64,000 nucleotides of DNA from Antedon mediterranea (Eukaryota > Echinodermata > Crinoidea > Comatulida > Antedonidae): assembly GCF_964355755.1 (NCBI RefSeq), contig NC_092674.1, positions 22,036,001 to 22,100,000 of the forward strand, in the 5' to 3' direction. The notes beneath the pieces are model-generated. The model made no database searches and was not told the origin of the DNA. It saw only the letters and a list, made by a program, of their open reading frames with translations. Position numbers and translations under genes: made by a program. Of the stretch, positions 4,273 to 55,800 are shown in pieces; within the stretch, counting starts at the first letter, position 1; each line of letters opens with the position of its first letter.

Positions 4273-5126
4273 AGTTCTAGAAAATGTATGTATATGAATA
4301 TTTAGTTATTGTTGAATTCCACCTTGATATTCCATCACACTTTAATATGAAACTATGCTTTTTCTGATACCTGATACTATGATCTATAGCATATTATATG
4401 TTAATAATGAACACCTATAGTATAGAGAATCATTATTGAATCGCAGACCGGAAAATGGTAATTGTACGCTTGTGTAATTGTGCTTCCCCCTAGTGTTCGA
4501 GTTTGCGCATCAGCCAAGTAATATTTTATTTTAAGCAAAAATATTAGTAAATGCTAACCCTGGACTCTAACTTTTATTATTAACATCTTTATTTAAAATG
4601 ACTACTAGAAATATCGATAATTGGCAATTTGTAAATATAATTGTTATTGAACTGAAAAATATTTCATCCTCGCGATATCAGGATTTTCCTCCATTGCATT
4701 ATTTTAGTTAATTTTTAAGTGTATGACGTCTGAAGTCTACTGGTAAAAACGAACGGCAAAACGCCACTCAACAAATTCTCAAATTCGGGAGTATGATTGT
4801 TTGTCGAATTGTCGCATGCACTAATCCTGAATAATACGTCATAGGGTATCAGTGAACATTGTAGACGTGGAAATAGAAAAGTCTCTTTTTTGGGACGACT
4901 GCCCATTATCTTTGGTCATGTTTTTCCTTTAACTGTAACATATTGCCTGATTATGTTGGCGCCTTTAACACTCATGGATGGAAAGTAGGAAAAATTAAAG
5001 CATCATTTAGCGATATAAAACGGTTCATATTCTACCTATTATACCGTTGTATCATTTACAGATATTTAGATTATTTAGATAGGGTTTTATATAGAATATA
5101 ATAATTATTATTATTACAAATAAAAG
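3736..5126. other. First coding exon and leader intron of gene A: no further features outside the exon
   Basis: Positions 4273-5126 are AT-rich intron between the ATG exon and the leader exon. I see no other gene, RNA or repeat in it apart from the MITE that follows at 5127. Confidence 0.6.
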
Positions 5127-15042: not shown

Positions 15043-18041
15043 TTATACGCTGGGGAAGTATAGATCTTTCCTTAAAGTGTACTGTGGAGCTGGAGCCTGC
15101 TTCTTATCCTCTAAACCCCATTTACCAACTTCATAATTTACTTGTGTTAGAATATCTAGTATGTGATCGGTGTCATGGCGTTCCTCCAAATATTTTGTCA
15201 GATTTGTAATGAAGTGTGAACCAGTCTGGGGCCGAAATGATTTCTTTAGAGGTGTTGTCGAGTATCCAAATAGGAAATCAGCGTAATCAAAATATTTGTG
15301 AAGAGAACCATCCCCCATTTTTTTGTCTCGGCACGCTTGTATAAAGAATACTTTTGGTTTTGCATTCAGACTTTCACACTTATCTGCTCGTAAATTGCCG
15401 GCAAGTTGTAATACATTGCACATTTCTCCATCACTACCAGCAACTTCTCCAAGTCTACCATGAGACAACAGACAACAAACAAAGCAATCGTATTGTGAAT
15501 GATCTCGTCTTCGCATTTCGTCCATCACATTCTTCATCTCCTGAGCAGTTTGATTGCGTTTCACTTCGACAATGAATCCCAAATTTTTAAAAACACGCTT
15601 CAGCTTATCTGTTGAGAAACATACTATACAATTATTATCACAGCAGGTATATTGTTTTATTTTATACGGATACCTAAATGTCTTAATGTCTTTTATTTGT
15701 AAATTGAATGCTGGAAAAATATTGTTTACAGCTTTTTAAGTGTCTAAATAATATACTTTCATTTATTCTTATTAACACGTAAAGTATAACGCCTATTGGT
15801 AATCAAACACAGGATTACAGGACGCCTGTTATTCCCAAAAAGAAATTCAACATTCCTTATACCTTCATCAATTTCAGAGCTAGTTCTTTCTTCCAGTTTT
15901 CTTTTTCCTCGAAACTTAATGTTGTTTATTATTAGGCATATTCCACGAGGAATGCTTGTCATTTTGTATTTAGGCCTGTCACCACCTAGTATAATGTAAA
16001 ACGTCAATTATTCAATAAACTAATTAAAAATATGATTGATCTGTCTTAAATTGACAATTATAATGTTCGTGCATGCAGTTAAAGTTGTAGACATGAACAA
16101 TTAAAATCAATAACATACTTTGAATAGACCATTTTGTAATTTTAACAAAGTTAATCACTTTTCAAGAAAATACCCGGAAAAAATCATGTTTTCAATATAC
16201 AATGACAAAATAAACCAAAAACCCATTGGCTGGCAGTCCATATTCTTTGCTTTAAATTACAGTTTTTTCTGGTAAACAATTTTTTTAGATGCAATTTTTG
16301 TGTATAACTATTATGTGATATTAGAATGGAGTACTCACTAAAATATCTTTCAGGGGACAATATACCTTCAAACAATTTATCTGTCTAACTGTTGTTTAAC
16401 TCGTTTAGATGTTCATAGTTATAGCGAAATGACCAATTGATAATTATTCATTTTTTTACATAATTACTATAATCACTTCCGTACTCTGTTTAACATGAAT
16501 ATGCAGAGTCTCCAATAGAAAGTAAAAACATATTAATACTGGAGGTTCTAAAATTAAATATATTAACTATTTCGCAAATACCAATGCTATGTGTAAATAG
16601 CCACACTCGATAGGCGCAATGACATTGATGGTAACAAGAGTTATTGACAACGGAAAATATTATTTAGAATATTTAGAATAAAATAATAATTTTCTGTTCT
16701 CCTTATATACTCATAATAATTATAGAATAAACTATACTTATTTTATGATACTAAATAAGAATAAAGATGGTTAAAATATTTAAGGCGACAGACACTTTGA
16801 TTTAAATGTTCAAAAAGAGAGAAAGTACTACTTTATACCTTGTTGGGTCACCGTGGATTCAATCGACAACTCATTATGGAAGGAATGCACAAGATCGTCT
16901 AAGTCTGTTGTTATCTCGCTTTGGCTATCTATGAGAAGTTAAAAAACAAATAAACATTTCAATTAACTTAACAAAAAGGAAGTTACGTAAATTATATTGT
17001 ACCTTTTAAATGAATACACCATTTAGGAAAATAATCGGTTGAATATTTTTGATTCACCACTACTATCGTACGTAGGAAGAAATAAAATAATGTGCACTAT
17101 AATATTGAGGGTTGAATATTATGGTATTTGTTTTCGTCATACACACAATTGTTATGTATGTAATTTACTAATAGTTGGTTTTAATATTAAAAGATACCGT
17201 TTCTGGTGAATTCCTAAAAGAATTTTTTTTATTAAAAACAATATACTCATAAACATTCAGTATTTGTATAATATATAATGTAGAATCAGTGTGTATATGA
17301 TAATGACAACAGCCTACAATACATTACCTTGCTGCACTGGATTGAAATTACCCATGTTATCTGAAAATATATAACATACCATACATTTAAAAACTTGTTT
17401 AAGAACATTAGGAACATACAGTTAAGTTGGCATACGTCAAGATAGCCATTGAAACTGATCTATTTTTTCTTCTTCATCTTTCCCCATTAACCTGCTCAGT
17501 GTATTTTTTTTTCTCAGAAAATCAATGGAACATGATCAATAATTCACGTTTATTTTGTAAACGTCGTTAAAATTGGATAAATTAGCTTGACGAATTAAAA
17601 ATCACAAACTGTGTTCATGCTTGTCAGAAAATGTCATTGCGGTTAACTGGGATTGGAAATTTGGATTCAGAAATTAAATTCTACGTGACGCCAACATTAT
17701 TTTAATACCAAGTATAAACAAAATCTTTTTATAATTATTTTTAATGTTGTAATCCTACTTCTAGAACGATATAATTATCAATCCCATATATATTTTGTTT
17801 CAGCCTTGTTCATTTGAGTACAAAGGAATAATTTTTCTTTAGCCTATAGCGATTTACAGTATCATATTTGGTAATAACAGGCAAAATAATGTACTTTAAG
17901 GCTGTGGCGTTTATATACAGCTTTTAAGAATCTGATTATGATAAAATGATAAAATAAATCAATATTAACTAAATAATCTTTTTTGGAAAACCTACCAGAG
18001 TCTGCTGAAAGATCCCCACAAGAATCGTCAAAACTAGCCAT
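15043..18041 (-). CDS. Gene C: caspase-8-like cysteine protease, intact catalytic residues
   Basis: Five exons give 858 nt, 285 aa: 18041-17996 (MASFDDSCGDLSADS), 17360-17328, 16928-16839, 15985-15863 and 15608-15043. All introns are phase 1 and all sites are GT-AG. The 81-residue prodomain is short and acidic, with no recognisable DED or CARD. The caspase fold follows: PRGICLIINN, ERTSSEID, LSHGRLG with catalytic His147, FFIQACRD with Cys190, DFLFGYST, SFRPQTGSHF with the S1 Arg, and a C-terminus DILTQVNYEV...YTLRKDLYFPSV like caspases 8 and 10. The active-site pentapeptide is QACRD rather than QACRG or QACQG. Fewer than 20 residues separate the Cys from the p10 start, so there is almost no cleavable linker. 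Expected role: Asp-specific proteolysis in cell death or immunity. A 3.5 kb transposon sits between exon 1 and the leader exon. Confidence 0.85.
16095..16376. mobile_element. TTAA-type MITE, copy 3
   Basis: It contains GTTAATCACTT, CCCATTGGCTGGCAG, CTTTAAATTACAGTTTTTTC and a CAGGGGACAATAT right end. The TTAA is mutated to TTCAA. It lies in an intron of gene C. Confidence 0.55.
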
Positions 18042-18122
18042 ATTACTACAAAAGTATAGAAATGGTTTATTAAAGTGAATTTGTATAGCCAGGTACAATC
18101 CAAGCTTTGAATTGGCCATTTA

Positions 18123-26153: not shown

Positions 26154-27657
26154 TTAACGCATATCTAGGGGCAACTTTTTAAGGTTTTTTTCTTCTAGTT
26201 CATCAACAATATGCGTTTTTCCCATAGCCTCTAATATTTTCTTCACATCTGCCCACTGGTTCACGCTGCTGTCCTGTCTTTCTCGCCATCGTACAAGTGC
26301 ATCAGTTGTTGATTCTACAATTTCATTGCGAAACTTTACTGCGATCTGGCATAATTCTGCATCATCAATAAGAAGCCTTGTGCAAAAATCTTTCCAGTGC
26401 TCGTCCATCATTTCAGAAATTATTAAGATTGCTAAGTCTGTTAAAAATCCTGTGGAAATAAAGCAAAGGAATCAGATTTGTATATATTTTTAATTATAAA
26501 ACTTTATAATATCATAGTAGAAAATTAGTCAAATAAAAGTTTAAAGATATATTACAAGAAAGCTACCGACGAATCATTGATCCACACACCTAGGCTAGTC
26601 AAAAGAAACATATGACCATTATTAACCAACCTTCGTTTAGGCCTAATTGTTCTGTAAATAAAACAAGTTTTCCTAAACATCCTTCATTATATTTATAGGC
26701 ATGTCTTTTGCAAAGAAGATCGCTGAGAGCAACACATTTTTGTTGTCTTAAGGCATTGATCATTATAGGAATCTGGTCTGAAGGTTGATTATTTCTCCAA
26801 GATATCAGGACTTCCATAATGCTGTCTTTGACGTCATAGTTATTGTTTGTAATATTAATAATGTCTCTCCATTCAATTCCAAGTCGCACTGCTAGCCTTC
26901 TCCACTCTGACTTTAAATTCTCGCAGATAAATAAGACATCCTGGTCATCAAAGCAATCTAGATAAATTATAATTTGGAAGATTAAAAGCATCAGTTAGAT
27001 AGTTTAAAATATTTTCTCAAATTCTAATAGTGAGACTAATACATGTTAAAAAGAAAAATGGATCTTCAAACGGACTTCCATTCACATTTTGTTCGTTCTT
27101 AATTTAATTTTTACAATAATTTATACAGAATTATTTGGGTTTTTTCTGGGAGCGGAAACTAATTGTAATACCTGTTCAACTGGACACATTATACAAGTAG
27201 GTTGGCTTTACTACGGTGCCAATAATAAGAGTATACAATGTCTATTGGACCAGTACTAAATCTAAGTACTTGTACACTGCCTTAGAAAAACATGTGAACA
27301 AACTAATTGCTTGTACAATTCATATTTCAGAAAGTTTTATCAAATTATACATCTCAACATGAATACCTGCATTTTTTAAACTTTCAGATTTTTCTTTTAT
27401 ATCCTCTATAAACGTGGAAGCAAGTTTTCTGTTGCCATGTTCAATAAGAGCAATACAAACTACTTCAAGTTGATTCAGTTCATTAATACAGTTTGTCCTC
27501 CAACATTTCATCATTTTTTCGGCTGCTTTAATTGACTCCATTTCCCTACCAAATGTATGTTTTACTTCAGTCCAACTCATCCCCAAACGAACACCAAATA
27601 TTTTCCAGTCATGGATCTCCTCAGCTACCTTTCTAATTGTTTTATCATCCACATAAC
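26154..27657 (-). other. Gene D, three tandem death domains
   Basis: Three exons, all phase 1 at their 5' side, each encode one death-domain fold. DD1 has IRKVAEEIHDWKIFGVRLGM, MMKCWRTN and ALIEHGNRKLAS. DD2 has LKSEWRRLAVRLGIEWRDI, VLISWRNN and ALRQQKCVALSDLL. DD3 has MMDEHWKDFCTRLLI, ALVRWRERQ and ILEAMGKTHIVDEL. The Trp and LG(M/I) helix-2/3 pattern and the later WR are typical. They could be a separate small gene, since a Met lies near the start of the DD1 frame, but the acceptor TATCTAATCTAG|GTTATG is in phase with the linker exon at 33442-33419. Known role: homotypic assembly of death-signalling complexes. Confidence 0.7.
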
Positions 27658-30600
27658 CTAGATTAGATAGCAAATACATCTCCACAAATTAGCACCTACT
27701 TTTTAAAAGCCACTGCCAATTCCAATATCTTTCTCAGTCAGTAAAGTCGTTTATCAACAATTTTGTTTAACTAGATGGTACACTCGCTTCGCTCGCGTAC
27801 CATAGGTCGTGCCCACAGATGTAATGGTTCTCGAATACACAGTAATTTCAGCGTAACAAAACTGGCGATTTCAAATGTACGTACCGCAGGACTATAATAC
27901 ATTGTCGTTTACAAGAAACGAATAAATAGACACGATGATTTATGTAGTCAACTAAAATTAGCACCCTGGGAATTACTTCCGAAGGAGAAACTTATCACAA
28001 AATGAGTCCAGATTTTATTTTTTGATTTGGACTCATTTAAAAAAACCCAATTTGTGTTTTGTATGTAACATTAGGGTTGAGGTATGGGAAAGCGGATAGG
28101 TACAAAGAGGAACAATTTTTAAATATATTCTTTATCCACTCAGTAACGAAATATTTTTTTCATGTTTTATAGGCCTATAAATAAAATACCTCTAAATACA
28201 GTAAAACATTTGCGATTTAATATTTTGTTAAAACTGTCACTGTCATAATCGATTGAAATATTAAAGTACATGTCACGATACACTACTACGACGTTTATAT
28301 TATTGGTAATTATTAATTAATACAAACGTTGAGAAGGAACTGTCAGTATAAAGTTTATTTGTATAATTATAATAATGTGTTTATATATCTAACAGTAGAG
28401 CCTATCCACAATCTCACTAATACAGTTTATTTGTATATATTTTTATATTACATCTAACAGTACGAACATTCACAGTAAGAAATGTTCGATTCAAATGAGG
28501 ACCAAAAATAGTTAATAGGTATTTACAGTATTGTCAACGTATTTCAAGTTTATTCTCAAAGGGCCCATATACTTATTTACCTACTGTATGTGTTAAACCA
28601 AGGGCTCATAAATTTACCTACTTGTGTTAAACCAAAGTCTGGCAGACAGAGATTGGGATGTTCCATTCATCGCAAATCAATACATTTGTATAATCGTATA
28701 TTAAATCTATCAAAATAGTATTTTTTAAAGAAAATCGGCCTGTCTTCAACATTATGATGCTGAACTCTAGCTGTTCAACCGGTTTTCAGCTATTAAAAAC
28801 AATTGTCGTAGGAGGAGATAGGAAAATGCGAAGCCTCCTCGCATTTTTGTGGCGGGTATTTTTCAAGATGGACATCCATTAGACAGTGTGTACCACGATC
28901 GGAAAACACCCCTATTTGGGCAAATCATTACACCTAAATTCGTTTTAATCGTCAATAACTAATTATCTAACTTAATTTAATTAGTAAACAGGGTTACATC
29001 AGGTGGTTAAAATCAGTAGGCCTACCGAAAGTACGAACCAACTTTATATACCATCGAGTAAAAATTCTAGAAGTAAGGCGCGATTTACCGAATTTTGCCC
29101 TTACGTAAATTTATATATAGATATATGGTTAACGCACATTCCAAGGAGAGGAATGTTGCAGCGCCCATGTGGCGGCTCTATATTGCTCTGTGCATAACAA
29201 CTTCGTATCTGTTTGCAGATGGTTTTTTTTCATCAAATAAGTTTTACTGGATGCTGGATTAGCAAATTGAGCACCATATATTCACAAATTTCTTATGTGG
29301 AAATAATCGTATCTTGGAGTAAATCGCAGTCGTTTTTCTTGTTGTTTCCTGAAGTTCAGCTAGGCCCTGCTTGTGCCTTTATTGTTTTAATTCAAACTCA
29401 TCACTGCCCAAGAACAATGGTCTACTAGCATCAGTGGGAAGCTAGCCCTGTACTTTCAATCTGACTGTGCATATTGTTATGTAAATGACCTTGTACACCT
29501 CATGCTTGAAGATCTGTTGTTGTCATGCTAATTAGCTATAGCTCTGAGTTTCTTCATGGTTTACAGGGCTGTGTAACCAACAACAATAACAGCTGTGAAC
29601 TTCTTGAAGAATCTTGCTTAATTATACAATCTTTTAAGTTGAACTCCAGTAGCTGTAGTATCCACCTATTACCAAGGAGGCCAAAAAGAAAAACCAGGCG
29701 TGGTACAAGAGCTGGGCGTGACAAACACACTAAAAACAATCTATCATTTCTGGACTTATCATCAAACTCTCTCTTATCTAAAAACAATATTAAATTTTGC
29801 AGTATTAATACAAGATCCGTTCGGAACAAAACAACAGAATTTGTGGATTTCGTTATCGAACATAATCTGGATGTTGTTGCCCTTTCGGAAACGTGGCTTA
29901 AACCAGAAGACACATCAGTTATAGGAAATATTACACCCAACGGATACTCTCTCAAACATGCTCCCCGTGCTGGTACTAAAAGAGGTGGTGGAGTTGCACT
30001 TCTTTACAAGGAAAGCATAGCGGTTAAATGTTATGACACGGGATTATTACCAAAATCATTTGAACTGCTAAATGTGGAAATAGTCAGCAATGAATCCTCA
30101 GTTTTCCTCGTAGCAGTATATCGTCCTCAAAGCAAATCAACGGGTTGCAGTCTAAATGTTTTCACTGAAGAATTCTCAACTTTGGTTGATCACTGAAGCC
30201 GGCTCCCATACTATTCGTTGGAGACTTTAACATCCATGTGGATATGCCAAATGATGCAGATGCAATTCATTTTCGGAATCTACTTGTAGCAAGCAGTCTT
30301 CAACAGCATGTGTCTACACCTACACACCGACATGGTCATACATTAGACTTGCTGATCACTCGTTCATCTGATCCTCCTGTTTTCTCAAACCTTAATGTCA
30401 TTGATGGTATATCAGATCACTATGCAATCACATGTAATCTCCTTATCAAGAAGCCACCCGTAATCACTAAATCCATCGAAACTCGTCATTGGAATGCTAT
30501 AAATTTTGAGACATTATGTAAAGATATCACACAGTCTGATCTCGGAACTTCGCTCTCAAATCTTGATTTATCAAGTAAAGTACGACTATATGTCACCACT

Positions 30601-33600
30601 TTGAGTGAACTTCTTGACAAACACGCACCACCGAAAAAGAGAACAGTAAAGGTCCGACCAAACACTAGTTGGTATAACAGTGACATCTATGCTGAGAAGA
30701 GAACAAAGCGTAAGCTTGAAAAGAAATGGAGAATCTCTCATCTGGAAATAGATCGTCAAGCTTACATTGCACAGAAGAGGAATGTCAATTCCATGGTAAG
30801 AAAGGCAAAGGCCAACTACTACATTGGCTTGTGTGAAGAACATGCAGCAGATCAGAAAGGACTTTTTAAAATTGTTAACCAACTCCTTCATCATCGCCAG
30901 GTATCACCTCTCCCAGATAGTCTTTCTGACTTAGATCTTGCGAACAGGTTCTGTCAGTTTTTCACAGACAAGGTCAAGATCATCAGAGACGACTTCAAGA
31001 TTGATGACATGTCATTTAATGAGCCTGTGACAGCTGTTCATCAGCATCTCACAACATTTACACCAGCATCTCAAGATGAGATCCGCAACATTCTGATGAA
31101 ATCACCAACAAAATCATGCAGGTTAGATCCAGTTCCTACTTCTATACTGAAGAAGTGTATAGACGCAGTCGTTCCAATAATAACGGAAATCATTAACCAT
31201 TCTCTTAATACCGGCATAGTGCCAGATGAACTGAAAATTGCTCACGTTCGTCCTTTAATAAAAAAGCAAAACTTGGATCATAACACGCTGAAAAATTACC
31301 GCCCGGTGTCGAATCTTTCTTTTCTTGGAAAGACTCTGGAGCGTGTAGTGACATCACGCATTACTCCATATCTTCAAAAGCATAATTTAAATGAGAATTA
31401 CCAGTCGGCATATCGTGCATGTCATAGCACGGAGAGTTCCCTTTTAAAGGTACAGAATGATTTGTTACAAGGAATGAATGATGGGAAAATAACGCTATTG
31501 GTGTTGTTGGATTTGTCAGCAGCGTTTGATACAGTTGATCACCAAAGACTGATAACCCGTCTGAGAAATCGCATTGACATAAATGGTGTTGCTCTTAACT
31601 GGTTCCAGTCATATCTTACAGGAAGACGTCAGCTAGTCTGTATCAATGATGCATTCTCAGATGAAGCTTGCCTGGAATATGGTGTACCACAGGGGTCAGT
31701 AATTGGGCCTGGCCAGTTTTCCATTTATACGCTTCCCCTTGGTGACATTATTCGCAAACACAGTCTACATTTCCATTTCTATGCAGATGATACACAGATT
31801 TATGTGTCAGTAAATCCAGTGCAAAGGGATGTTGCTGCAGCAATCAGTAAGATGGAAGCCTGTATAGAAGATGTTCGCAATTGGATGACAACAAATTACC
31901 TAAAGTTGAATGATGGAAAGACAGAGTTTATTATCGTCGGGTCTAAATGTAGCATCTCCAAAATCAACATCACACATATTAGAATCGGAAACTCTAACAT
32001 CGCTCCCTCATCGGTGGTCCGGAATCTGGGAATCATGCTGGATAGTAATCTCACTATGGAAGCACAAATAACAACTGTATCCAAAGCAGCATGCATATCG
32101 ATTAGGAACCTTGGTCGTATTCGCGGTAATCTTAACAAGAAAACAGCTGAATTGATTGTACACTCATTTTTCACTTCTAAAATTGACATTGGTAATGCCT
32201 TTTTGTTTGGCTTACCAAAATCTCAAATACAACGTTTGCAGCGCTTGCAAAATATGGCAGCTAGAATTGTAACTTATACAAAATCAAACGCTCACATAAC
32301 TCCTGTCCTGATGGATTTGCATTGGTTGCCTGTTCAACAACGTATTAAGTACAAACTTGCGTTGTTTGTATTCAAGATCCTAAATGACAGTGCTCCTGCT
32401 TATTTATCTGACCTTGTGGATCGTTACGAATCATCCCGCAGAGGCCTACGATCATTGTCACAAAACCTTCTTCAAGAGCGTAGAGCGAAAAATCAGTGGG
32501 GTCAGAGATCTTTTTACGTTGCGGCCGCAAGTGTATGGAACAGCTTACCAGCAACAGTTAAATGCTCAACTAGTCTAAACAGTTTCAAGACCAACCTAAA
32601 GACGTCGCTATTCGCTGATGTTCTCGCACGTTGTTAATGCACAAAGCGCCATGAGCGCCACATGGGTGGAGGATACCGGCGCTATATAAGTTTTCATTTA
32701 TTATTATTATTATTATTACTTTTACATAATGTAACCATTTCTCTTTGGAACAAATTACAAACATGCTCATTCAATCCTCATGTTTAAAAGGCTTTACTTT
32801 TCGAGAAAAATGTATACTCTTAATTGTAAATTAATGCTTTGGTCTAGTTAGATGCTCAAATAATTGAGAACACGTACCTGTTACATAAATTAGTAAACGG
32901 AATGCAGTGACTCCACACTGTGTCGGTCGGTTGGTCGGTCGGTCGGTAAACACTAATTCAAATTTGATCACGCGATTGCAGCCATGTATATGGTCTTGTT
33001 ATTTTACTGGAAACTTGGTTTTTGTGATGCACATTCACATGTATTGGAGTTATTATTGTTTTGTTGTTTTTGTATGTAATACTCAAAATTCTATGAAACT
33101 GCTTACCTTTGAGATGAGACTTTGTTGATATAGCTACAAAAATAAATAAATATAAATTCATAAAAAACCTACTACCTTCATTTATTTTACGTGGGAAGTA
33201 TAATACTGCTTACTAAACGGTGGATTAGAGCATTATTATAGCACAGCACAGTATTTGGATGATTATAAATTGTTATAAAAATATTAAACAACTTAAACAA
33301 ATTAACATGACATACGTAAGTTTACAGAATACACATTCTTTTTATTTTTGTAAATTTTTCCTAATTAAATCAGAACCACATACTGTAATTATTATTATCT
33401 ACTCTATACACTACTTACCATCATCTTGAGACTTGGAATTATCTATAAAAATATAAATATAATTATAGAGTAAATTGTTTGTTGTTTTACTGTTTATAGT
33501 TTCTTTTACTGCAGTTGAAAAAATAAATTTGTAAAGAAATCATAATGGCCGATAACATTACATTTTTTTTTTAAACGTTTAATTGTTTTAATCATGTGTA

Positions 33601-36600
33601 TAATAAATACACAAATAAAAAGTACATTTAAATTACCTTTTGGTAGTACATTTTCGCCAAACAATTTACGGTAAAGTTTTACTTCCATTTTATTGCTTCT
33701 ACAAGGTAACTCATCTTTGTCAAACTTGCGAATATTGTGCATATGAGCATTTTGAATGTTTGGACTACATGTACAAGGGATGCACATCCTTACTTCAAGA
33801 CCTCGCGCATCCTTCTGACTAAACACTTTCAATTCTTCTTGAAGGAAACAAAGAACCTAACACATAAAGTATCATTGTTATTTTCATTTTTTTTTTATGT
33901 ATTACTTGTGCTATAATTTATTTATTTGAGAATGGTCCAATAATAGTTTCAAAAATGAGAATATAAAGAGTTCTTAGAATATAAAAAAAGAAATTAGAAT
34001 AAGCTGTTATGTATCACTTTGTTATGCCTACCTTTTTACATGTGTCAGGTAGTGGCTTGTCATCTTCAGTACACTGTTGTTCTGGAAGACAGGCAGTGAA
34101 ACTCTTAGTTCTTACTATTGTTGTCTGAAAAAAAAACCCAAAACTGAACCTTATGTATGGTAGTTTGGCACAATCACTGTAAATCTATATTTTGTATCCA
34201 AGAGCTTGTTATTTCACACGTTAGTAGAAGATTGAATGAGTTTTCTTGACCTCTATAATCCATACAACTGACTGAATACTAATTACATTTGAATCTATTA
34301 TTATTTTACATATGACTAAGCTGTTTAAGAAACATTTTTTAATTTACAATAATGTGTAGAATAGATTTAAGTTGTATCGTTTTCAGTTTTAACATGTTTC
34401 TATTACACAATATATGATAAGTCAGTCCTAATTTGTTGACAGTATGCAGTATAATAGTACCGATTATAATATTTACCTGTAACATACGACAATGCTTAAT
34501 GGTAGCAACATATAGAATAACTAGATGATCAGCATCAATATTCATTTCTACATGCTCGTAGGAGAGTTGAGGTTCATAATCTTCCATTTGAAATTTTTCA
34601 ATGAATTTGGTTGCAGCACTTTGAAAGAGATCATCTGGAAGATATCTACCAAAATCATGAAAGAGAGAAACTGCACGCTTTTCTTCAAACTGTGGTAGTC
34701 CTTTGGCTTCTGGTTTCAAACGTGGTAGAACATAGAACATGCGTTCGCCATTCTGTAAATAAAACAATAATTAAGGAATAGAAAATGGAAATACGAGTTT
34801 CAACAGAAAAAAATTTTGTTTAGTATTATAAATACCTTTGTACTTTTTCGTTCAGTCATTAAACCAAACTTTTGCATGAGAGACACAAAGTCCTTCAAAG
34901 TCACATACTCTTTGAAATTTTTCAACAGATGTTCCAACAATTCACCTTTTAAAATACCGTATTCAAGATAATCCCAAGCGTCACTCATGTCTGGGTCCTA
35001 TTATGGTTAAAAACGAAGTTTAGTTTCACCATGTCAATTATGAGTAACTAGAAAGATTTCCATATCACAGCTAGTTTACCAAAACCCTAACCAAATCTAG
35101 TTTACAACATTCTAAGTAAAAGTTCAGTCGTTTTGATTCCCCATGCGTACAATAGAAAATAAAGTATGATAAACAAACGTACAAACTTTTTTTCTTGTTG
35201 AGAACATTTCATGATTTGAAAGATTGACTACTTTATTTTCAACGAGGCGGAACCGCGTTAAAAATAGAGCAATCAATCTTTCATCAAATGAAATATTCTT
35301 TCCATTTAACAAGGAATACAACATATTCAGTATTGCTTTATTACACATCTGATTGCATTCTTGCCATTTCATTGGTTAACTACGCATCATTTGTCGTTCA
35401 TTATTTTGTACAAATGAACAATGAGCGGCACTACGTTGTACGATAAACGGCGCTATTGATTGTTGCTGCTTCTTATGAAAATTCGAGTCTCTGCTGTACA
35501 CGCCGTCTATAACTGTTCTAATCTCCGTCCAATATTAGAGCCCTGCCTGTGAATGCTTCTCGGCATAGATTGAACGATGATTCAAGATAGACTTTTTACA
35601 GTAGTTTAATTTATAATTTGAATTTATTTAGATTTAGCTTAGAATTTTGTAGTGCTTTTTTTGCACAGAAATGTTCTACTGTCAAATTGTTTCTTAACTA
35701 TTGTATTGTGAGGCAATTTCAACACAAGCTTTGCTTTAGAAAACTGTGTATCTTTCATAATATGTACCTAACCTGAAACTCTGGATCTTTAACAGTGATG
35801 ATTGTTTTAAACACGTCAACAAGCCGCATCAAATCTATAACAATTATATCTTTTAGATTATTGTCATCGGGGTAGTAAAGAATCTCGCCAATGTCATGTA
35901 AGTACTCAAGCAGAACTCTGTGATCTTTTGTTACTCTACAGTTGTTTAACAAATCAAAGATCTAAAAGAAGTAAATTGGTGAAAAATGAATTAAAGACAA
36001 TCTAAAAAAGGTTAGTGGGTATAACAATTGTAGATATTGTATAGTTGAGTACTGTTATACTGTACTAATCATCGTTTATTAAACTTCTGGTATATTTTGT
36101 TTATGCTATTCGTGCTTTGTGTAATGACATATTAATACGTTTTTGATATAGTTCAACAAACTTGTCATACAAAATATTAAAAATACAAATACTTGGAAAT
36201 AGGCACAATTAAAATAAACATTATTTAGAAAAATATGCTTGTTTCTACCTTAGCAGTTGGTATATAGATGAAGTTCCTCTTTAAGCCTTGGATTTCCTGT
36301 TGGACTTGTAACCATTTTATTGGCAAAGTACGGATCATTTTCTTGGACAAATCAAGTATTTTTTCGATGATGTTAAAACCGTTGCTCTTGGCAAATGGTA
36401 GACTGTTTTCAATTGTAAAAATAATTGAACACACCATTGCCCTGTATGGTTTGCCTTTTAGAGCTTCTTGGATTGTTTTCTTTATTTCTGCAAGCTGTAA
36501 TGAAGTGAACCAGGGTGTCATCATTATTATCTAAATGTACTGTCATAATATAAACACGTGGCGGTAAAAAGATGTTTTGACAAGATTTTGAAAATATCAA

Positions 36601-39600
36601 AACAAAAATGAAATCAATTCTTCAGTTTGACAATTGTTAACAATAAAAACATACTATCTAAAAATACTTTCTCTATTATTTTACCTTGCGTTTCTTTTCT
36701 GCTTCACTACCTTTAAGGCCATTTAAATGTGTACCTATCAATAATACATGAGGACAAAGGAGACCTTCTATTTTCTTTGCGTCAGATCTACTGTTTGTGT
36801 ATATTGAACAAATCCAATAAAGGATGAAATCTAGATTTGTCATTCGATGTTTGTACATTTTACCCTAAATACAAAATTAACATCGTTAGATAAGTTTGAG
36901 ACTTGTATTTCCAAGAGAGTTGTAGGTATATCCATTTTAGTTGATTATTAATACATTACAATAAAGTGAAATTGATCACAGTCTATCACTTTAGGTTAAG
37001 TCAGTCATTGTGGGTTATCATTGAGAAAAGCATTCCTATTCTACATTCCACAACTGAACGTCTTTAGGGCTGTTTTTCCCAGTACCCTTTGTTGCATTTC
37101 CTAATAACAGCCGCATTTCCGGCAAATATTTCAAAACTTGTTCATTGGTCGACTCTACTAAAAGATTTAAGAGTAACCAAACTCGCCGGATTGTTTTGGA
37201 TAAGAAATTTGCAAAATGCAACAATGGGTACTTCCAAAAAAAGTTGTTGCCTACCTAGGGTAGAGGCTTCCCTGATTTAAACAAAAAAAACCTGTATTTA
37301 TCTATACTGTCAGATTGTGGTAAACATTCTTCGTATGAGAATGGCACAACTCATATTAGCGAAACACAACATCACTCAATAGCAAATTTCAGAGTTATTA
37401 ACTAAAAGTATGAATAGAGTGACAAAACATCCAGACAATTAAAGTAGTGGGATCTCCTATGGTAATAGAGTGCCAAGACCAATTAGAGAAGTGGAAGTTT
37501 AAGAGAAATATGGATTTCTAAATCAGTCATTGTATGCTTAACATGTTGTTGTGAATAACCAAAGTGCTGCCTCAAATAATAGGCGTTATGTTTTTATCAA
37601 TTATCAATTGTGACCAATTACAAATAATACAGTAAATAACTAAACAAGCACAAAATATGCTACGCCTTACAGTTGTTGGGTCCAAGACCATAGCTGGTGC
37701 CTCCAGATCATGACACAGGTTGAATACTACACAAATAACAGCAAATGAAACCATGAAGATCTACCGGTATGATATTATTATTATTATTAATTGAATTTTA
37801 CAAATGATGTGTATTGTTGTGTATAAAAAAATGTACTCGATTTGTTTAATGGTGCGCGGCAATTGCGAACTGCACACTGTCTAGCACATTCTATGTGAAT
37901 ACAAGAGAAAATACTTTACCCGCTGTATCACATGATAAATTGGTTGTCCTCCGAAGTCCCAAATATTCATCACAAACTTGTTATTAGACTCCTGGTTGTC
38001 ACTCCCTTCTTTCTGAAACTCAATCTCTAATAATTTATGGATGTTAGGAGGAATCTCTGACTGCATTTTTTCTTTCCCTTCTTCATATGCCAGTTCTAGT
38101 TTATAATTTAATAAAATTATACATTTTAATTCTTTTCAAATTCTGCAAATATGAATCAAAATTGCGCATTTGCTTTACATGTACTATGTTCTTTTTTTCT
38201 ATGGGTTCAAAAGGAAACTGCCTCCGCTCGAGTGCAGTTCAGTCGGATGTTGCACTGTTAACTCTACGCACACATAACCTTGATATTGTGTTTAAAGAAA
38301 AAACAAGGACAACACGTAAGGAATGAGACAATTGTGTTATGAGTTAGAACTCAATATCTCTACTACACTTACATTTTAGCTAGATTTCTTTTTCTATATC
38401 ATTGAAAGAGTATATACTTCTCTTTGTTTGCATATTTGTAGTTTGTATGCATAGTAGCTAGATAAAGGCGATTCCAAATATCAAGAATCTAATTGCCTAA
38501 ATTGTTTCAAATATAGTATTAATTTTCGAACGAATGTAATTTTATGGGATGGAATTACACTAGACTTACCTCCACATTCTTCATCTGTTTTTGTGGATAG
38601 GTCTGGATTTTGTGTTAACTGTGTTTCAACATGTGATTCTACAGTAGCATTTGTTAAAAGGGTTTCAGGTTGTTCTTCTCTTAAATCGTTTTCTGCGGAT
38701 ATTGTTGTATTTTGTTTTTCTTTCACCCGTTTTACCACTTCTCTTGCAATGACATTCTCGTATAGGCCTATGTCAGAAGCTTCAGCTTTAAAAAGTTGTG
38801 TTTGTTTCTTTATTATAAGTCTTGGTATTGTTGTTATACTTATTATTTTCATTATCAATACATACTCCCGAAAATACTATTATGTTCACATTTTTGCTGG
38901 TAATGTGAAGCGTGTGTGTCAAGTTTCATTAAATCACATTTATTGTTTTTAAATGTACAATTAAATTCAGAATTTCAGAAAATCGACGTACTGTAGTTAC
39001 GGTCGGCAACATCAGTTCATAAAATAAAAGTTATGTGCACAACTATTATAATATACCTGCTAGTCAACATTTGTGAACATTTTCCGAAAAACTGTGAACA
39101 ATTAAATAGAAAAGTGGATAGCCTAGTTATAGTATTACAGGTAGTATAGTTTGAGAATTAAAATTATTGTTATAAGATGTCGCTCTGTTCGCGCGTTTTT
39201 GCGCACACGTCTCTTGCAGACAGATCATTTTGTGCACGTAATTTAAGACTAAAGCATGGTTCTTAGGACACAACGACGTAATGTATCAACGCAATGTATC
39301 GATGCAAAGTGCCACTGTGTAATTATAAGTTGGAACCGAAAAAGAGATTGCAATATTTGAAAGCTTGTTACGTATCGTTGTACGGTATACTTACCAGTCT
39401 CTTGTGATTTTTCTTCCAAAATGATATCATCAACACTTTCTTGAGTGCACACCCTTGTTGTTGCTATGGCATCGGTAATGTCATGCTTTGGATTAAAACT
39501 GTAAAAGAAAATGTTTACTGCATTACAGTATATATAACTTAAAAACAAACAAGTAAAAATATGCAATTATTAAACCTCAATAATCACAGAAATAACGGAA

Positions 39601-42586
39601 ATAAATTATAAATGTTGTCAAAACTAAGTATTATCATGCGTTTAGAGTACACATGCAGGCAATCATTATAACCAAACTTAAGTTCCACATCATTTTTCGG
39701 TAACTAAAATTTAAAATTACAGTTATATTAAACTAAACTTTTACTGTATATATCACGTGATTTGTTAATACTACGTTATGTATGACAAGTGAATATGTTG
39801 AATTGTAATTGAATAATGGTTTGTGGAAGTGTTATGTGGAAATTCATCTAAAAATACAACACAGTATACATTATGAAGCTGGAGATGCCAAAACTTTTTA
39901 AAAATAATAATCTTGTTTACAAAGTTTGAACTACAAAAAGGATAACATGAATGTTATTTTAATAAATTGTCAGCGTTTGCATAATTGAGAAAGTTTAGTG
40001 TTTTTACTAGTGAAAACATATTTGATTGAAAAAAAAATATGGTAAAAACACATTGTTGATTGGGTAATATATTTCAAATATAATCTCGACTAACACTTTT
40101 AATTTATTTGACTGTTTAAAAGCTATGTTTACCTTTTCCTTAATAAGGAATTGATTGTAGAAGTTTTTCCAACTCCCTCAAGGCCTACAAAAATAGTTCT
40201 GCCTTGACTAACTTCAGTTTCCCCTTCTAGCAGTGCTTCATTGAATGCCTTTACTGCTTCTGGTCCTCGAGCTTGTATCTCCCATGGAGCTAATAGTGAA
40301 AATAAAAGGAAAAATGCTGGGTAGATTCATGAAAAAAAAATATTTTGCTTCGTTTACACTATCTACATAAATTATTCAACAATGTTTGACAAGCAACAGT
40401 AATCACTCGAAATTTACTATAGCAAGGCGTTTGACTTGATTGACCATGACTTAGCTATTTATTTATTTATTATTATTTATATTACTTATTATTCCCTGTA
40501 TCTGCGATTGTTTAATTTAGCACCAGTTATAACGTGTAAGCGTGTGGGTCGATATGTGCCACAAGAAACGGCGTTTTGATTGATTCAAGAGACAAGCTGG
40601 CCGCTTTAATTTACAGCAGAATTCCATGTGACTCACCTACAGGAAAGTATAGATCCTTTGTTAGAGTGAACTGAGGAGATGGTACTTGACAGCCGGTTAG
40701 TTGGCTTACTTCTCTATTCACACGTGTTAGCATGTCTAGAATATGATTAGTTTGATGACGTTCTTTTAAAACTCTTGTCAGGGTTCTGATAAAAACCGAA
40801 CCACTTTTGGTGTTGCTCATTTCTTTGGTTTTAGGTGCCGTAGAGTATCCAAACAGGAAATCGACATCATTGGGAATGTTGTCAAACGAATCATCTTTCT
40901 CCTTAGTTCGGCTAGCTTGTATAAAGAATACTTTTGGTTTGGAATGAAGACTTTCACATTTATCTGCTCGGAGATTACTGGCAAGTTGTAACATATTACA
41001 CGTTTTTCCATCACTACCAAAAACTTCTCCAAGTCTACCGTCAGACAATATACAACAGACAAAACAATCGTATTGTGAATGATCTCGTCTTCGCATTTCG
41101 TCCATCACATCCGTCATTTCCTGCGCAGTTTGATCGCGTTTCACTTCGACAATGAATCCCAAATATGTAAAAACACGTTCCAGCTCAACTGTTGAGAAAC
41201 ATACAGTACCAGCATTATCACAATATTACTTTATTAAATTATGAAAGTCTTTTATTTTGACATTGAATATTTTTGATGTTTGAATTGTGTTTAATTGCTT
41301 TCATTCTTCTAAACACGTTACTTGTAATGTCTTTGATATTCAGATATAATTTAAATCACTGACTAATGAAACTTATACCTTCATCATCAACTGCAGCACC
41401 AGTTCTGTCTGACAAGTTTTCTGCAAAGCTAATGTTGTTAATTATTAGGCATATTCCTCGTTGGTTGCTAGTCATTTTGTATTTAGGCCTGCCTCTACCT
41501 GGTATAACAAAATAATTTAAAAATATAGTAATACAAATGCCATTTATTAAATGAACTAATTATAAAGTACTATAATGTAACGTGCGTAACATTTAAAATG
41601 ACATCTAGTCTATATTTTACGTTTGGATGTCCATATTTATATTGTCATGAGCACATTATTTTTAAATTTGACAAAGAATTACAATTACCATTATTTCCAC
41701 AATCTATTTTGCTAATATCAATTTGTAAAAATAGGCATTATCGGTGGTGACGAGGGTAACATTAATTATGTATTGTGTACCCTACCGCTGAAGTAGTGCC
41801 TAGAATTTACTGTTACCCATAATTCAAAAACCAGATTGGCCACTAAGACCAATTGTGGACAACAATAATTCAGTATTTTATTACGTCTCCGAGGCAAAGT
41901 TGGTGTGATTTAACGGATAGCATGTAACTAATTCAAAAGAACTGGCAGACAATTTTAAACAGGTTAGAGTGATCGATAATGATTGATGACCCAATTTGAC
42001 GTTGTTTCCTTATTTACAAACATTCCCACAGCATAAGGTAAATAACATCGACCCATCTAATAGCATCACGTTCACTACAGAGATAATGTCGGGGAACAAA
42101 ATATCATTATCATGAAAACATGATTTAATAACAAACAGCATTCCGACCAATCCAATAATCACACACCACAGAGATAATATCGTGGAACAAAATATCAATC
42201 ATTCTTAGACATGATGATCACAATAAACTTAATACATTATTTACCACTAATCAATTTAAAAAATGGTCTGGTTCATCCGAAAGTTTAAATTAAAACAGAA
42301 GACGTTGGAGAAAAGGGACGTGCTCTTAAGATAAGAATAGGAGACCATAAAAAGGACTTCACCACACATAATCAAATGGTGAGAACAAGGGTTAATAGTT
42401 ATATCGTTCCAGGTGTTTCACAAATCGGCTATCAGGGATTATGCAATAAGAAATGACCATGTGCCAAATTAAAATTAATTAATACACAACATAAGAATAG
42501 AAAGATGTGTATAATAATAAAAACGAGATAATGTTTGATAATTCAAATGAACAACAAACTACTTTACCTTGCTTCTGGGTCGCCAT
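26154..42586 (-). CDS. Gene D: pseudo-caspase - Roc GTPase - COR - triple death domain fusion protein
   Basis: Seventeen exons join in frame to 1257 aa: 42586-42568 (MATQKQ), 41498-41379, 41188-40637, 40289-40133, 39498-39395, 38785-38570, 38095-37920, 37760-37671, 36864-36685, 36530-36249, 35961-35773, 34997-34836, 34752-34477, 34124-34032, 33856-33637, 33442-33419, 27657-27367, 26957-26631 and 26449-26154 (the list includes two short linker exons). Domains in order: caspase fold 1-230 with the catalytic residues lost, Roc about 235-538 (P-loop GLEGVGKT, switch WDFGGQ), COR about 539-841, a Cys-rich linker, then death domains at about 954-1050, 1051-1159 and 1160-1257. The join rests on CCTGTAG|GTGAGT at the end of the caspase exon meeting the Roc acceptor in phase 1. 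A scaffold or GTP switch in cell-death signalling, built like DAPK1 (Roc-COR-DD), is inferred. The alternative is two adjacent genes. Confidence 0.7.
27771..29121 (-). mobile_element. Helitron-like non-autonomous element, copy 1
   Basis: On the minus strand the 5' end is TCTATATATAAATTTACG and the 3' end is a hairpin (GGTACGCGAGCGAAG... near-palindrome) followed by ATCTAG. The flanks are A at the 5' end and T at the 3' end, as expected for Helitron insertion between A and T. No Rep or helicase frame is present. It lies in the large intron of gene D. Confidence 0.7.
29525..30196 (+). pseudogene. Retrotransposon endonuclease part, ends at a frameshift
   Basis: The frame gives 223 aa with an endonuclease/exonuclease/phosphatase fold: FCSINTRSVRNKT, VVALSETWL (the catalytic Glu motif) and GGGVALLYK, then VFLVAVYRPQ. 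It stops at TGA 30194-30196 after LVDH, and the next frame continues at once with ILFVGDFNIH, the following endonuclease motif. A single lost base near 30193 explains the break. The copy cannot make a full-length protein without frameshifting. Confidence 0.8.
30196..32637 (+). pseudogene. Retrotransposon reverse transcriptase part
   Basis: The open frame continues from the break to a stop at 32637. It holds the end of the endonuclease (FVGDFNIH, GISDHYAI), then reverse transcriptase blocks: LKIAHVRPLIKK, NYRPVSNLSFLGK, LLVLLDLSAAFDTVDH, GVPQGSVIGP and the catalytic HFYADDTQIYVS. The C-terminal tail has LHWLPVQQRIKYK and ASVWNSLP, typical of CR1/L2-like families. This part is uninterrupted over about 800 codons, so the insertion is fairly young. 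It cannot be expressed as one product with the upstream half. Confidence 0.85.
32890..33000 (+). repeat. GGTC-repeat family element
   Basis: GTGACTCCACACTGTG, then GGTCGG repeats, TAAACACTAATTC and CGCGATTGCAGCCATGTATA. It is intronic in gene D, next to the CR1/L2-like insertion. Confidence 0.6.
33176..33205 (-). other. Possible optional micro-exon of gene D
   Basis: A 30-nt open segment between TAAGCAG and GAAG|GTAGTA would add ten residues (VLYFPRKINE) in phase 1/phase 1. It sits between the linker exon at 33442 and the death domains. Similar tiny phase-1 exons occur in genes A, C and E. It is supported by splice motifs only. Confidence 0.25.
34032..40289 (-). other. Gene D, Roc-COR (ROCO) module
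   Basis: Eleven exons encode a ROCO core. It begins APWEIQARGPEAVKAF, a typical lead-in to Roc. G1 is GLEGVGKT (266-273). The switch I area is HDITDAIATT. G3 is WDFGGQPIY (435-443), followed by CVVFNLCHDLEAP. The G4-like loop reads LLIGTHLNG, lacking the usual Asp. COR-like blocks follow: GKPYRAMV, IENSLPF, IKWLQVQ, LLEYLHDIGEILYYPDD, LVDVFKTIITV, WDYLEYGILKGELL and MQKFGLM. Roc domains bind GTP and COR dimerises in known family members. The order and spacing match invertebrate ROCO proteins. Confidence 0.8.
35000..35772. other. Gene D intron with a diverged repeat shared with 52560-52860
   Basis: CGCCGTCTATAACTGTTC (35500 area) matches CGCCGTCTATAAATGTTC at about 52600. CCGCCTCGTTGAAAATAAAG on the minus strand near 35235 matches CCGCCTCATTACAATTAGAG at 52800. 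An 82-codon minus frame here (35372-35124) is not needed for the ROCO frame. Confidence 0.35.
40637..42586 (-). other. Gene D, pseudo-caspase module
   Basis: Residues 1-230 of gene D. The fold-defining blocks are present: KYKMTSNQRGICLIINN, DRTGAAVD, DCFVCCIL, GSDGKTC, DFLFGYST, HILDMLTRVN and FTLTKDLYFP. The catalytic His is Asp96 (LSDGRLG), the nucleophile Cys is Ser139 (QASR), and the S1 Arg position is Asn172. If no splice occurred, the frame would read eight more residues (GESHGILL) to a stop at 40611; an in-phase GTGAGT donor sits directly after YFPV instead. The module cannot be a protease by the known mechanism and resembles a FLIP-type pseudoenzyme. Confidence 0.8.
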
Positions 42587-44848: not shown

Positions 44849-46077
44849 CTAGATGGTACGCGAGCGAAGCCCACAGATAAACGTTCTCGAATACACAGTA
44901 ATTTCAGCGTAAAAAAAACCTGGCGATTTCAAATGTACCGCAGGACTATAATACATTGTCGTTTACAGAAACGAATAATTAGACACGATGATTTATGTAG
45001 TCAACTAATAGTAGCACCCTGGGAATTACTTCTGAAAGAGAAAGTTGTCACAAAATGAGTCCAATGTTTGATTTGGACTCGTTTAAGCAAACGCAATTTG
45101 TGTTGTATGTAACATTAAGGTTGAGGGAAGGTGAAAAGAGGAACAATTTTTAAATATATTCTTTATCAACTCAGCAACGAAATATTTGTTTACGTTTTAT
45201 AGGCCTATAAATAATATACCACATATAAAACATTTGCGATTTAATACTTTGTTAAAACTGTCACATGTGACGATACACCACTACGTTTATATTTTTTGTA
45301 ATTATTAATTAATACAAACGTTGAGAAGCAACTGTCAGTAATATTGTTTATTTGTATATTATGTGTTTATAATCTAACAGTGGGGTCTCCCACACGTACA
45401 CTCACAGTAATACAGTTTATTTGTATATGTTTTATTATTATATATAACAGTACCAACACTCACAGTAAGAAATTTGCGATTCAAATGGCGACCAAAATTG
45501 GTTAATAGGTATTAGGCCTATTGCAATACTATATCTTAAGGTTTTAAGTTTATTCTCTAAGGGCACATAAATTGTGTTAAACCATGGAGGCAATTGGTTT
45601 AACCAAATAATTTGGAATGTTCCATTTATCGCAAATCAATACATTTGTATAAACGTATATTAAATCTATCAAAATAGTATTTTTTAAAGAAAATCGGCCT
45701 GTCTTCAACATTATGATGCTGTACTCTAGCTGTTCAACCAGTTTTCAGCTATTAAAAACAATTATCGTAGGAGGAGATAGGAAAATGCGAAGCATCCCCG
45801 TATTATTGTGTGCGGTGTTTTTCAAGATGGACATCCATTAGACAGTGTATACCACGATCGGAAAACACCCCTATATGGGGCAAATCGTTGAACCTAAATT
45901 CGTTTTAATCGTCAATAACTAATTATCGAACCCAATTTAATTAGTAAACCCGGATTACACCAGGTGGTTAAAATCAGTACCGAAAGTACGAACCAACTTT
46001 ATTATACCATCGAGTAAACATTCTAGAAATAACGCACGATTTACCGAATTTTTTCCTTACGTAAATGTATATATAGA
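44849..46077 (-). mobile_element. Helitron-like element, copy 2
   Basis: The same 5' (TCTATATATA, preceded by A) and 3' (CATCTAG followed by T) ends as copy 1, with extended similarity across its 1.2 kb. The terminal hairpin is shortened here. It lies in the leader intron of gene D. Confidence 0.7.
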
Positions 46078-46285
46078 TACATGGTACAGGGACAGAAAGG
46101 GACATTCATGTTTCCACAGTATGCAGTAAGGTTACGTTGCTTCTAACAGTTATTTGCCATAAAGAAAATACTAAATTTGCTTTAATTTCCTACATGTCTC
46201 AATGTTTAAAACATGTATTACTACTATTGGTATTAATATAATAAAGAAATCTTAATAAAATTGAAATTGCTTTATTTGGGCTTAC

Positions 46286-52896: not shown

Positions 52897-55800
52897 TTAT
52901 ATGCTGGGGAAGTATAGATCCTTTCTTAAAGTGTATTGGGGAGATGGTGCCTGATACACTTTATCTATTTTACATACATTATAATTCACTTGTGTTAGAA
53001 TATCTAGAATGTGATCGGTATGGTGACGTTCTTTCAAAACCTTGGTCAGACATTGTATAAAATGTGAACCAGTTTTGATCTTCAATGATTTCTTTAGAGG
53101 TGTTGTCGAGTATCCAAATAGGAAATCAGCGTAATCAAAATATTTGTGAAGAGAATCATCTTCCATTTTTTTGTCTCGGCACGCTTGTATAAAGAATACT
53201 TTTGGTTTTGCATTCAGACTTTCACACTTATCTGCTCGTAAATTGCCGGCAAGTTGTAATATATTACACGTTTTTCCATCACTACCAGCAACTTCTCCAA
53301 GTCTACCATGAGACAACAGACAACAAACAAAGCAATCGTATTGTGAATGATCTCGTCTTCGCATTTCGTCCATCACATCCTTCATCTCCTGAGCAGTTTG
53401 ATCGCGTTTCACTTCGACAATGAATCCTAAGTATTTAAAAACACGCCTCAGCTCATCTGTTGAGAAACATACTGTACAATTACTACCATAGCAGGCATAT
53501 TGTTTTTTTTATTTATGAAATATAGATATCCCTATATAAAATTAATGTCTTTTATTAAAACGTAATTCTGAAGAATATTGTTAAAGCTTTAAATTGTGTT
53601 TAAACTAGATGGTGTGCTCGCTTTGCTCGAGTAGGCCTACCATCTAGGGCGTGTCCACAGAGGGTTCTTGAATACACAATAATTTCAGCGTAAAAAAACT
53701 GGCGATTTCAAATGTACGTAACGCAGGACTATAGTACATTGTCGTTTACAGAAACGAATAAATAGACACGATGATTTATGTGTGAATTAGGCCTACTTCC
53801 GAAGGAGAAACTTGTCTTAAAAATGAGTCCAAATTGTTTATTTTAACTCATTTAAACAAACCCAATTTGTGTTTTGTATATAACATTAGAGTACAGTAAT
53901 TCAGTAAAACATTTACGATTTAATACTTTTTTTATAACTGTCCCTGTTATAGTCGATTGAAATAAAAAGCACATGTAACGATACACCACTACCGTACAAC
54001 GTTTATATTTTTTATAACTATTAATACAAACGTTGAGAAGCAACTGTCAGTAATACAGTTTTTATTTATATATTATGTGTTTATATATCCAGCAGTAGAG
54101 CCTACCCACAGTCACATGTTCTTTGTATATGTGTTTATATATCTAACAGGAACCACATTCACAGTAAGACAATTTCGATTCAAATGGGGACCAAAAATGA
54201 TTAATAAGTATTTTACAATATTGTCAAAGTATTGCAATACTATATCTCAGTTTTAAGTGTATTCTCCAAGGACCCATAAATTTACCTACTTGTGTTTAAC
54301 CAAGAGCTCATAAATTTACCTACAAACTGGGAGTTTGAGAGATTGGAATGCTCCATCCATCGCAAATCAATACATTTGTATAAACGTTTATTAACTCTTT
54401 CAAAATAGTATTTTTAAAAGAAAATCGGTCTTCAACATTATGATACTTTTCAACCGGTTTTCAGCTATTAAAAACAATTATCGTAGGAGGAGATAGGAAA
54501 ATGCGAAGCATCCTCGTATTATTGGGTTTTTTTTCAAGAGGACATCCATTAGATAGTGTATACCACTATCGGAAAACACCCTATTTGGGGCAAATCGTTG
54601 AACCTAAATCCGTTTGAATTGTCAATAAATAATTATCTAACTAAATTTAATTAGTAAACAGGGTTACATCAGGTGGTTAAAATCAGTACCGAGATTCTAA
54701 CCAATTTTATATACCATCGAGTAAACATTCTAGAAATAACGCGTGATTTACCGAATTTTGCCCTTACGTAAATTTATATATAGACTCGAGCTGTTCAACC
54801 GCTTTTCAGCTATTAAAAACAATTATCGTAGGAGAAGATAGAAAATGCGAAGCATCCTCGTATTATTGTGTGCAGGTATTTTTCAAGAGGACATCCATTA
54901 TAGTGTATACCACGATCGGAAAACACCCCTAAAGGAGTCGTCAAACACACGGCCAGCCTGTGGTTCTTTTTTGGCCAGCCTGTGGTCCGAGGGCGCTAGA
55001 CAATTGGCCAGCCCCTGTGGTCCCGAGAGCGCTAGCATGAAAACACACAACAGCCCGTCTCAGCTCTGTGACATACTTGCCAGCCTGTGGTCCCAAGGGC
55101 GTTAGACATAACTTTTCTATGCTTTTCTAAAGTGAGCCCTCTACAACTGTTTTCATTTTATAAAAACTTCACTGTGCTTTGACAAGAATATATGTTGTAA
55201 TTTATGGGTCTTAATGTATTATATTAGATTATTATTTGTTATATTAAATAATGTTTTTAGACATATTTACGGCCGCCATCTTGTTGGTTCCCCCTCCTGT
55301 TGGAATCACTTTTCAGTCTGCAGTACGCCCTCTAGTGTTCTTATTACATCTCTCTATCTTTGGCGGCTCTCTGGCTGACCAAAATGTCTAGCGCCCTCGG
55401 GACCACAGGCTGGCCAAATATCTAGCGCCCTCGGACCACAGGCTGGCCATAAAAGAACCACAGGCTGGCCGTGTGTTTGACGACCCCTGCTCGGGCAAAT
55501 CGTTGAACCTAAATCAGTTTTAATTGTCAAAAACTAATTATCTAACTAAATTTAATTAATAAACAGGGTTACATCAGGTAGTTAAAATCAGTACCGAGAT
55601 TTTAACCAACTTTATATACCATTGAGTAAACATTCTAGAAATAACGCGCGATTACCGAATTTTGCCTTTACGTAAATTTATTCTGTTGATTCTGGTCAAC
55701 ACTTAACGTATACATCATATTGATGCATATGATTACAGGATGGATGCTACCCAAAAGAAATTTCTTATACCTTCATCTATTTCAGAACTAGTTCTTTCTT

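Follow-up and report, generated by a model that had tools for sequence, protein, structure and literature searches.

A Putative Pseudo-Caspase, Roc-COR, and Three-Death Fusion Gene in Antedon mediterranea

Introduction

DAPK1 operates in a cell-death context and comprises Roc-COR followed by a Death domain, with a kinase and ankyrin repeats at the N-terminus. On the caspase side, c-FLIP is defined by tandem DEDs. In c-FLIP(L), both catalytic residues of the caspase fold were lost (replaced by R and Y), and dimerization with caspase-8 was retained (PMC7586951). The N-terminal domain of coral caspase-X, which bears neither His nor Cys, is fused in the same chain with an active caspase, which it apparently modulates (PMC4715348). 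Kinase, Death, TIR, and helicase domains have already been published as fronts of ROCO proteins (PMC11378527). The sections of the literature dealing with the hybrid innate-immune genes of amphioxus describe caspase shuffled onto TNFR, LRR, and Death partners (PMC2575513), and those dealing with the ROCO repertory of Aplysia describe TIR-ROCO and Death-ROCO proteins (PMC9334734). Thus, pseudo-caspase fusions and shuffled ROCOs are known already, while the domain order of caspase, Roc, COR, and three Death domains appears to be undescribed. We found no report of a caspase-ROCO protein in the open-access literature, where absence is not proof of novelty.

Here we analyzed a locus of A. mediterranea that putatively encodes such a protein. 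The window, namely the whole stretch of 64,000 nucleotides (C5:22036001-22100000), was examined together with the genome of 354 Mb in 18 contigs.

Results

Gene model and domain composition

An independent rebuild gave a minus-strand model of 20 exons, which starts with an ATG at 42586 and ends with a TAA at 26154 (3765 nt; 1254 aa). All of the introns are bounded by GT and AG, and all of the junctions are in frame. The preliminary description claimed an in-frame chain from MATQKQ to the last Death domain, which holds throughout; the length given there (3774 nt; 1257 aa) differs from ours by 9 nt at a boundary, which changes nothing. In Pfam, the 1254-aa model matched Peptidase_C14 (5e-49; residues 20-227), Roc (2.7e-11; 44.2 bits with a cut-off of 27), COR-A (3.2e-14; 53.5 bits with a cut-off of 35.3; residues 596-737, after Roc), and Death (1.6e-18; three stretches). 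As all four matches exceeded the curated cut-offs, the domains named in the preliminary description were recovered by the profile search. In the Pfam order, COR directly follows Roc, as in ROCO proteins. The model is akin to DAPK1 in having Death after Roc-COR but differs from the latter in possessing three Death domains and a caspase-fold front, and no kinase or ankyrin match was found in Pfam up to E = 1.

Exon 1 (42568-42586; phase 0 to 1) encodes MATQKQ and is followed by the GT donor AAG/GTAAAG. This predicted start is the least certain exon in the model, and no homologue of it was found elsewhere in the genome, including the regions in front of other Roc genes. Exon 2 (41379-41498; 120 nt; symmetric 1-1) encodes the N-terminal strand of the caspase (RPKYKMTSNQRGICLIINN) and has homologous exons in the caspase paralogues of the window and the cluster described below. 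Exon 3 (40637-41188; 552 nt), which is internal and 1-1 here, encodes p20/p10 of the pseudo-caspase.

Roc starts in exon 4 (40133-40289), which includes the P-loop GLEGVGKT at residue 266 of the model. The exons downstream of exon 4 have counterparts up to exon 15 in a paralogue on C3, and the percent identity to the C3 exon is given for each in parentheses. Roc continues through exon 5 (39395-39498; 65%), exon 6, a Roc insert (38570-38785; 42%), exon 7 with the G3 motif DFGGQ at residue 436 (37920-38095; 74%), exon 8 with VVFNLCHDLEAPA (37671-37760; 83% with the same boundaries), and exon 9 with the G4 region (36685-36864; 69%). Exon 10 (36249-36494; 73%) comprises the end of Roc and the start of COR-A, and COR extends over exon 11 (35773-35961; 77%), exon 12 (34836-34997; 50%), and exon 13, its C-terminal part (34477-34752; 82% with the same boundaries); the Pfam match to COR-A covers sequence in exons 10 and 11. 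They are followed by a linker in exon 14 (34032-34124; 69%) and the post-COR region in exon 15 (33637-33856; 58%). The G4 motif in the model is GTHLN instead of THxD (i.e., D is lost), and the same GTHLN is found in the C3 paralogue. With the P-loop and DFGGQ kept and G4 altered, nucleotide binding by this Roc domain is plausible.

Exons 16 (33419-33442) and 17 (33107-33133) are linker micro-exons predicted from splice sites and frame. Exons 18 (27367-27657), 19 (26631-26957), and 20 (26154-26449, including the stop codon) encode Death domains 1, 2, and 3, respectively, which match Pfam Death and are arranged in the same three-Death order as in the paralogues. The 5.4-kb intron preceding the first Death exon contains a stop-free LINE-type reverse transcriptase frame of 815 aa in antisense orientation (30190-32637, plus strand).

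The pseudo-caspase and the surrounding caspase cluster

The preliminary description regarded the caspase as dead, and we agree, as both catalytic residues are replaced: SHG is changed to SDG (LSDGRLG) and QAC to QAS (IQASRT). Among the 10 aligned caspase paralogues, SHG is conserved in nine and QAC in all, and the pseudo-caspase is the only sequence in which both positions are lost. Seven of these ten close paralogues share a cluster with the pseudo-caspase at C5:22.03-22.14 Mb. The caspase fold (p20/p10) was recognized by Pfam, Foldseek, and phmmer, while the His-Cys dyad of an active caspase is missing. The AlphaFold model of the pseudo-caspase (with 11 paralogues) received a pLDDT of 79.5, and the predicted structure matched caspase-3/-7/-8 in Foldseek (best match to caspase-3, 1.7e-15); phmmer yielded 1.6e-35. 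The pairwise dN/dS between the pseudo-caspase and its paralogues (0.32-0.42) is not above that among the paralogues (0.31-0.53), implying that the fold has been kept under constraint.

The pseudo-caspase resembles c-FLIP(L) in being a dead caspase fold (R/Y in FLIP; D/S here) encoded beside active paralogues (PMC7586951). Unlike in c-FLIP(L), no tandem DED was found, and the pseudo-caspase is N-terminal, followed by Roc-COR-Death. Likewise, coral caspase-X carries an N-terminal dead caspase in one chain with another cell-death module, albeit the partner is an active caspase there and a ROCO GTPase here (PMC4715348). A DED profile detected no DED exon upstream of the pseudo-caspase on the minus strand from 42.6 kb to the window end. 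The nearest upstream DED exon is at C5:22.105 Mb (locus L021), with two other caspases lying in between.

Several other features of the cluster were observed. DED exons precede cluster caspases at 3721-4305 and 17862-18119 of the window and at 4723-5337 of L021 (all on the minus strand; the one at 17.9 kb is a short DED-like start only), and thus several neighbours look like caspase-8-type DED caspases. The cluster caspase at 7539-8138 (minus strand) has lost the His of SHG (SYG) but retains QAC, and is probably a second pseudo-caspase. In the caspase at 52897-53508 (minus strand), the usual S-x-R motif of the substrate pocket is devoid of Arg (SLK). A dispersed repeat with 80-91% identity occurs in several copies inside the cluster (27770-29129, 44869-46085, and 53592-54931 of the window, and others). 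Outside the cluster, near-identical caspase-like frames of 276-278 aa were found at five dispersed sites (C3:17087102, C3:25293886, C4:16569933, C4:16716397, and C9:14165052), and may have been carried there by a unit that is mobile or was duplicated segmentally.

The junction between the caspase and Roc exons

The caspase exon ends with TTTCCTGTAG/GTGAGT, a phase-1 donor at 40637. The next acceptor, ttcactattag/CTCCATGGGAG at 40289, is of phase 1 as well, and removal of the 347-bp intron (40290-40636) would produce LYFPVAPWEIQARG. The homology to caspases stops at YFP, and TAG/GTGAGT comes immediately after. This donor received the top score of the 268 GTs between 44500 and 40290, and only 0.19% of the minus-strand GTs in the window match or exceed its score. 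Thus, the two core claims of the preliminary description, a strong donor exactly after YFP and a downstream acceptor opening Roc in the same phase, were confirmed. The same description contrasted the tail of this caspase with a YFPSV-stop in the paralogues. The paralogue tails are not uniform, comprising YFP, YFPSV, YFPSI, YFSSVDQ, YFPGLEID, YFPKHEA, YFPKL, and YF (each followed by a stop), and as they vary in length and sequence, a deviating tail alone is weak evidence for fusion. What sets the pseudo-caspase apart among the 11 caspase tails is the strong donor within the reading frame, found at 40637 alone. Chance donors do occur, as the paralogue at 52.9 kb has a very strong donor (CAG/GTGAGA) 48 bp past YFP, beyond its stop. 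No homology beyond 25 bp was detected between the junction intron and the 3' flanks of caspases or the introns of Roc paralogues.

The frame of the Roc exon runs upstream into a stop codon with no intervening ATG, excluding an independent start in this exon. The Roc exon thus requires an upstream coding exon that ends in phase 1. Besides the MATQKQ exon, the only candidates for such a first exon with acceptable donors were pieces of the caspase exons and two ATG fragments of 2-5 codons. Neither DED nor any other module was found upstream of the caspase in the window as the true first exon of the Roc gene, and the minus strand between 42.6 and 52.9 kb contains no long ORF with a recognizable domain.

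If the donor at 40637 were not used, the caspase exon would end with YFPVGESHGILL and a stop codon (40611-40613), leaving a 9-residue tail. The locus would then consist of two adjacent genes, namely a pseudo-caspase gene ending at 40611 and a Roc-COR-three-Death gene, of which a short first coding exon went unrecognized upstream of or within the former. Such an arrangement is consistent with the variable tail lengths of the paralogues and with AATAAA at 40471 and 40463, both inside an A/T-rich repeat in the junction intron, which could serve as poly(A) signals. Furthermore, the 6-9 kb upstream of three Roc copies (L010, L023, and L025) contain no recognizable domain exon, and the first exon of these copies may be short. 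On the other hand, the unspliced stop and the Roc acceptor are only 322 bp apart, the frame of the Roc exon offers no ATG, alternative phase-1 first exons are few, and the top-ranked in-frame donor would need to have arisen by chance. We therefore regard two genes as unlikely.

A product mainly without the caspase seems less probable still. Given the phase-1 end of exon 1 and the 1-1 symmetry of exons 2 and 3, MATQKQ could be spliced straight to Roc with the frame preserved, the caspase exons being skipped or included in a minor isoform only. Nevertheless, the caspase exons 2 and 3 are conserved and constrained, and no homologue of exon 1 was found elsewhere in the genome, be it before other Roc genes or otherwise.

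The Roc-COR-three-Death family in the genome

We identified at least 135 copies related to the first Roc exon, many of them in arrays, which lie on C1, C3, C4, C5, C9, and C11. The C3 paralogue possesses the counterparts of exons 4-15 with mostly identical boundaries, and the dN/dS of Roc-COR between the two is 0.29 (375 codons). The three-Death tail is collinear on C1, C3, C5, and C7. Altogether, the shared exons 4-15 and the recurring three-Death tail indicate that the C-terminal four-fifths of the model represents a real, repeated cassette. The preliminary description contrasted the model with DAPK1; its true relatives are, however, these Roc-exon copies in the same genome.

The family members on C1, C3, C5, and C7 share with the model the exons and boundaries of Roc-COR, the phase-1 Roc acceptor (found in the paralogues examined), and the three-Death tail. 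In contrast to the model, their fronts, where recognizable, are DED, NACHT, or Death, and no caspase is nearby. The predicted modules before Roc are DED or DED-like in L009, L012, L013, and L028, NACHT in L013 and L026, NACHT-LRR in L011 and L022, and Death in L030. Good donors ending the front-module exons were always of phase 1 where found (L009, L011, L013, L022, L026, L028, and L030), and none was found at the end of the front-module exon in L012. The NACHT donor of L013 and that of L026 are located approximately 263 bp before the Roc exon, a layout matching that of caspase and Roc in the model. NACHT is strongly expanded in the genome (at least 103 matches). Among most Roc copies, homology extends only 25-58 bp into the sequence preceding the Roc exon, as expected if the N-termini were exchanged at that intron; L009, L023, and L025 are exceptions with longer shared upstream stretches. 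Judging from these sequence comparisons, the ROCO family apparently shuffles DED, NACHT(-LRR), and Death as front modules joined in phase 1. Separately, in L012 (C1:2294001-2304000), a tandem-DED exon is repeated about four times in near-identical form upstream of a single Roc gene, which suggests recent internal duplication.

Neither a caspase relative in front of any other Roc copy nor a second caspase-Roc pair was found in the genome, leaving the architecture without a replicate. Thus, the isolation claimed in the preliminary description is valid for the caspase front, which is unique in the genome, but is overstated for the architecture as a whole, as close Roc copies carry DED, NACHT, or Death fronts and the caspase front is one more swap. 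A spliceable but unselected and non-functional chimera, to which the single-copy state of the fusion might point, is highly improbable, as neither half is disrupted and both have been under constraint over a dS of about 0.5, albeit this constraint could predate the fusion.

Discussion

The phase-matched junction and the genome-wide comparison make one gene clearly likelier than two, and we consider it probable, on the predicted exon structure, that a single gene encodes the pseudo-caspase, Roc-COR, and three Death domains. The caspase looks like a one-off N-terminus on a heavily expanded Roc-COR-three-Death cassette. We propose that phase-1 exon shuffling placed the cassette directly downstream of a dead caspase in the tandem caspase cluster, and that the once-terminal caspase exon may have acquired a donor at its C-terminal end, which would feed the ancestral phase-1 acceptor of the cassette. 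In the brown-algal ROCO family, diversification before Roc likewise proceeded through phase-matched exon shuffling, although LRR exons were shuffled in phase 2 and no caspase is involved (PMC11378527). In the sections cited above, the amphioxus hybrids and the Aplysia ROCOs are similar to the model in that domain shuffling provides caspase or ROCO with new partners, but the combination of caspase and ROCO is not found in those sections (PMC2575513, PMC9334734).

The caspase fold may have been retained for protein binding, with the active caspases of the cluster as its partners, much like c-FLIP(L) and caspase-8. Provided that the locus is one gene, we would give such FLIP-like partner binding, which is proposed by analogy, an even chance. 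Roc-COR could be a dimer switch, regulated by GTP, through which the pseudo-caspase units are clustered. The Death domains would bring in Death-domain adaptors, and the protein might thereby gate or damp caspase activation on a signalling platform. The fullest version of this scenario is tentative and rather doubtful: a GTPase-gated pseudo-caspase, in which the Roc-COR switch would cluster dead caspases, whose allosteric effect on the active caspases encoded by neighbouring genes would be activating or blocking, the three Death domains would wire the protein to receptors, and the whole would have originated from a terminal caspase exon captured by a shuffling ROCO cassette.

If the gene is transcribed as modelled, a FLIP-type regulator, a ROCO GTPase, and a Death-domain platform, which are separate proteins in human cell-death signalling, would be joined in cis, and it would become directly testable how ROCO switching is connected to caspase control, which is poorly understood. 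The wider context may outweigh the single fusion: among the Roc-exon copies of this genome, which number at least 135, the N-terminal modules (DED, NACHT, Death, and one caspase) were apparently swapped at one phase-1 intron. This family would be an animal parallel to the ROCO immune candidates of brown algae, which are shuffled as well.
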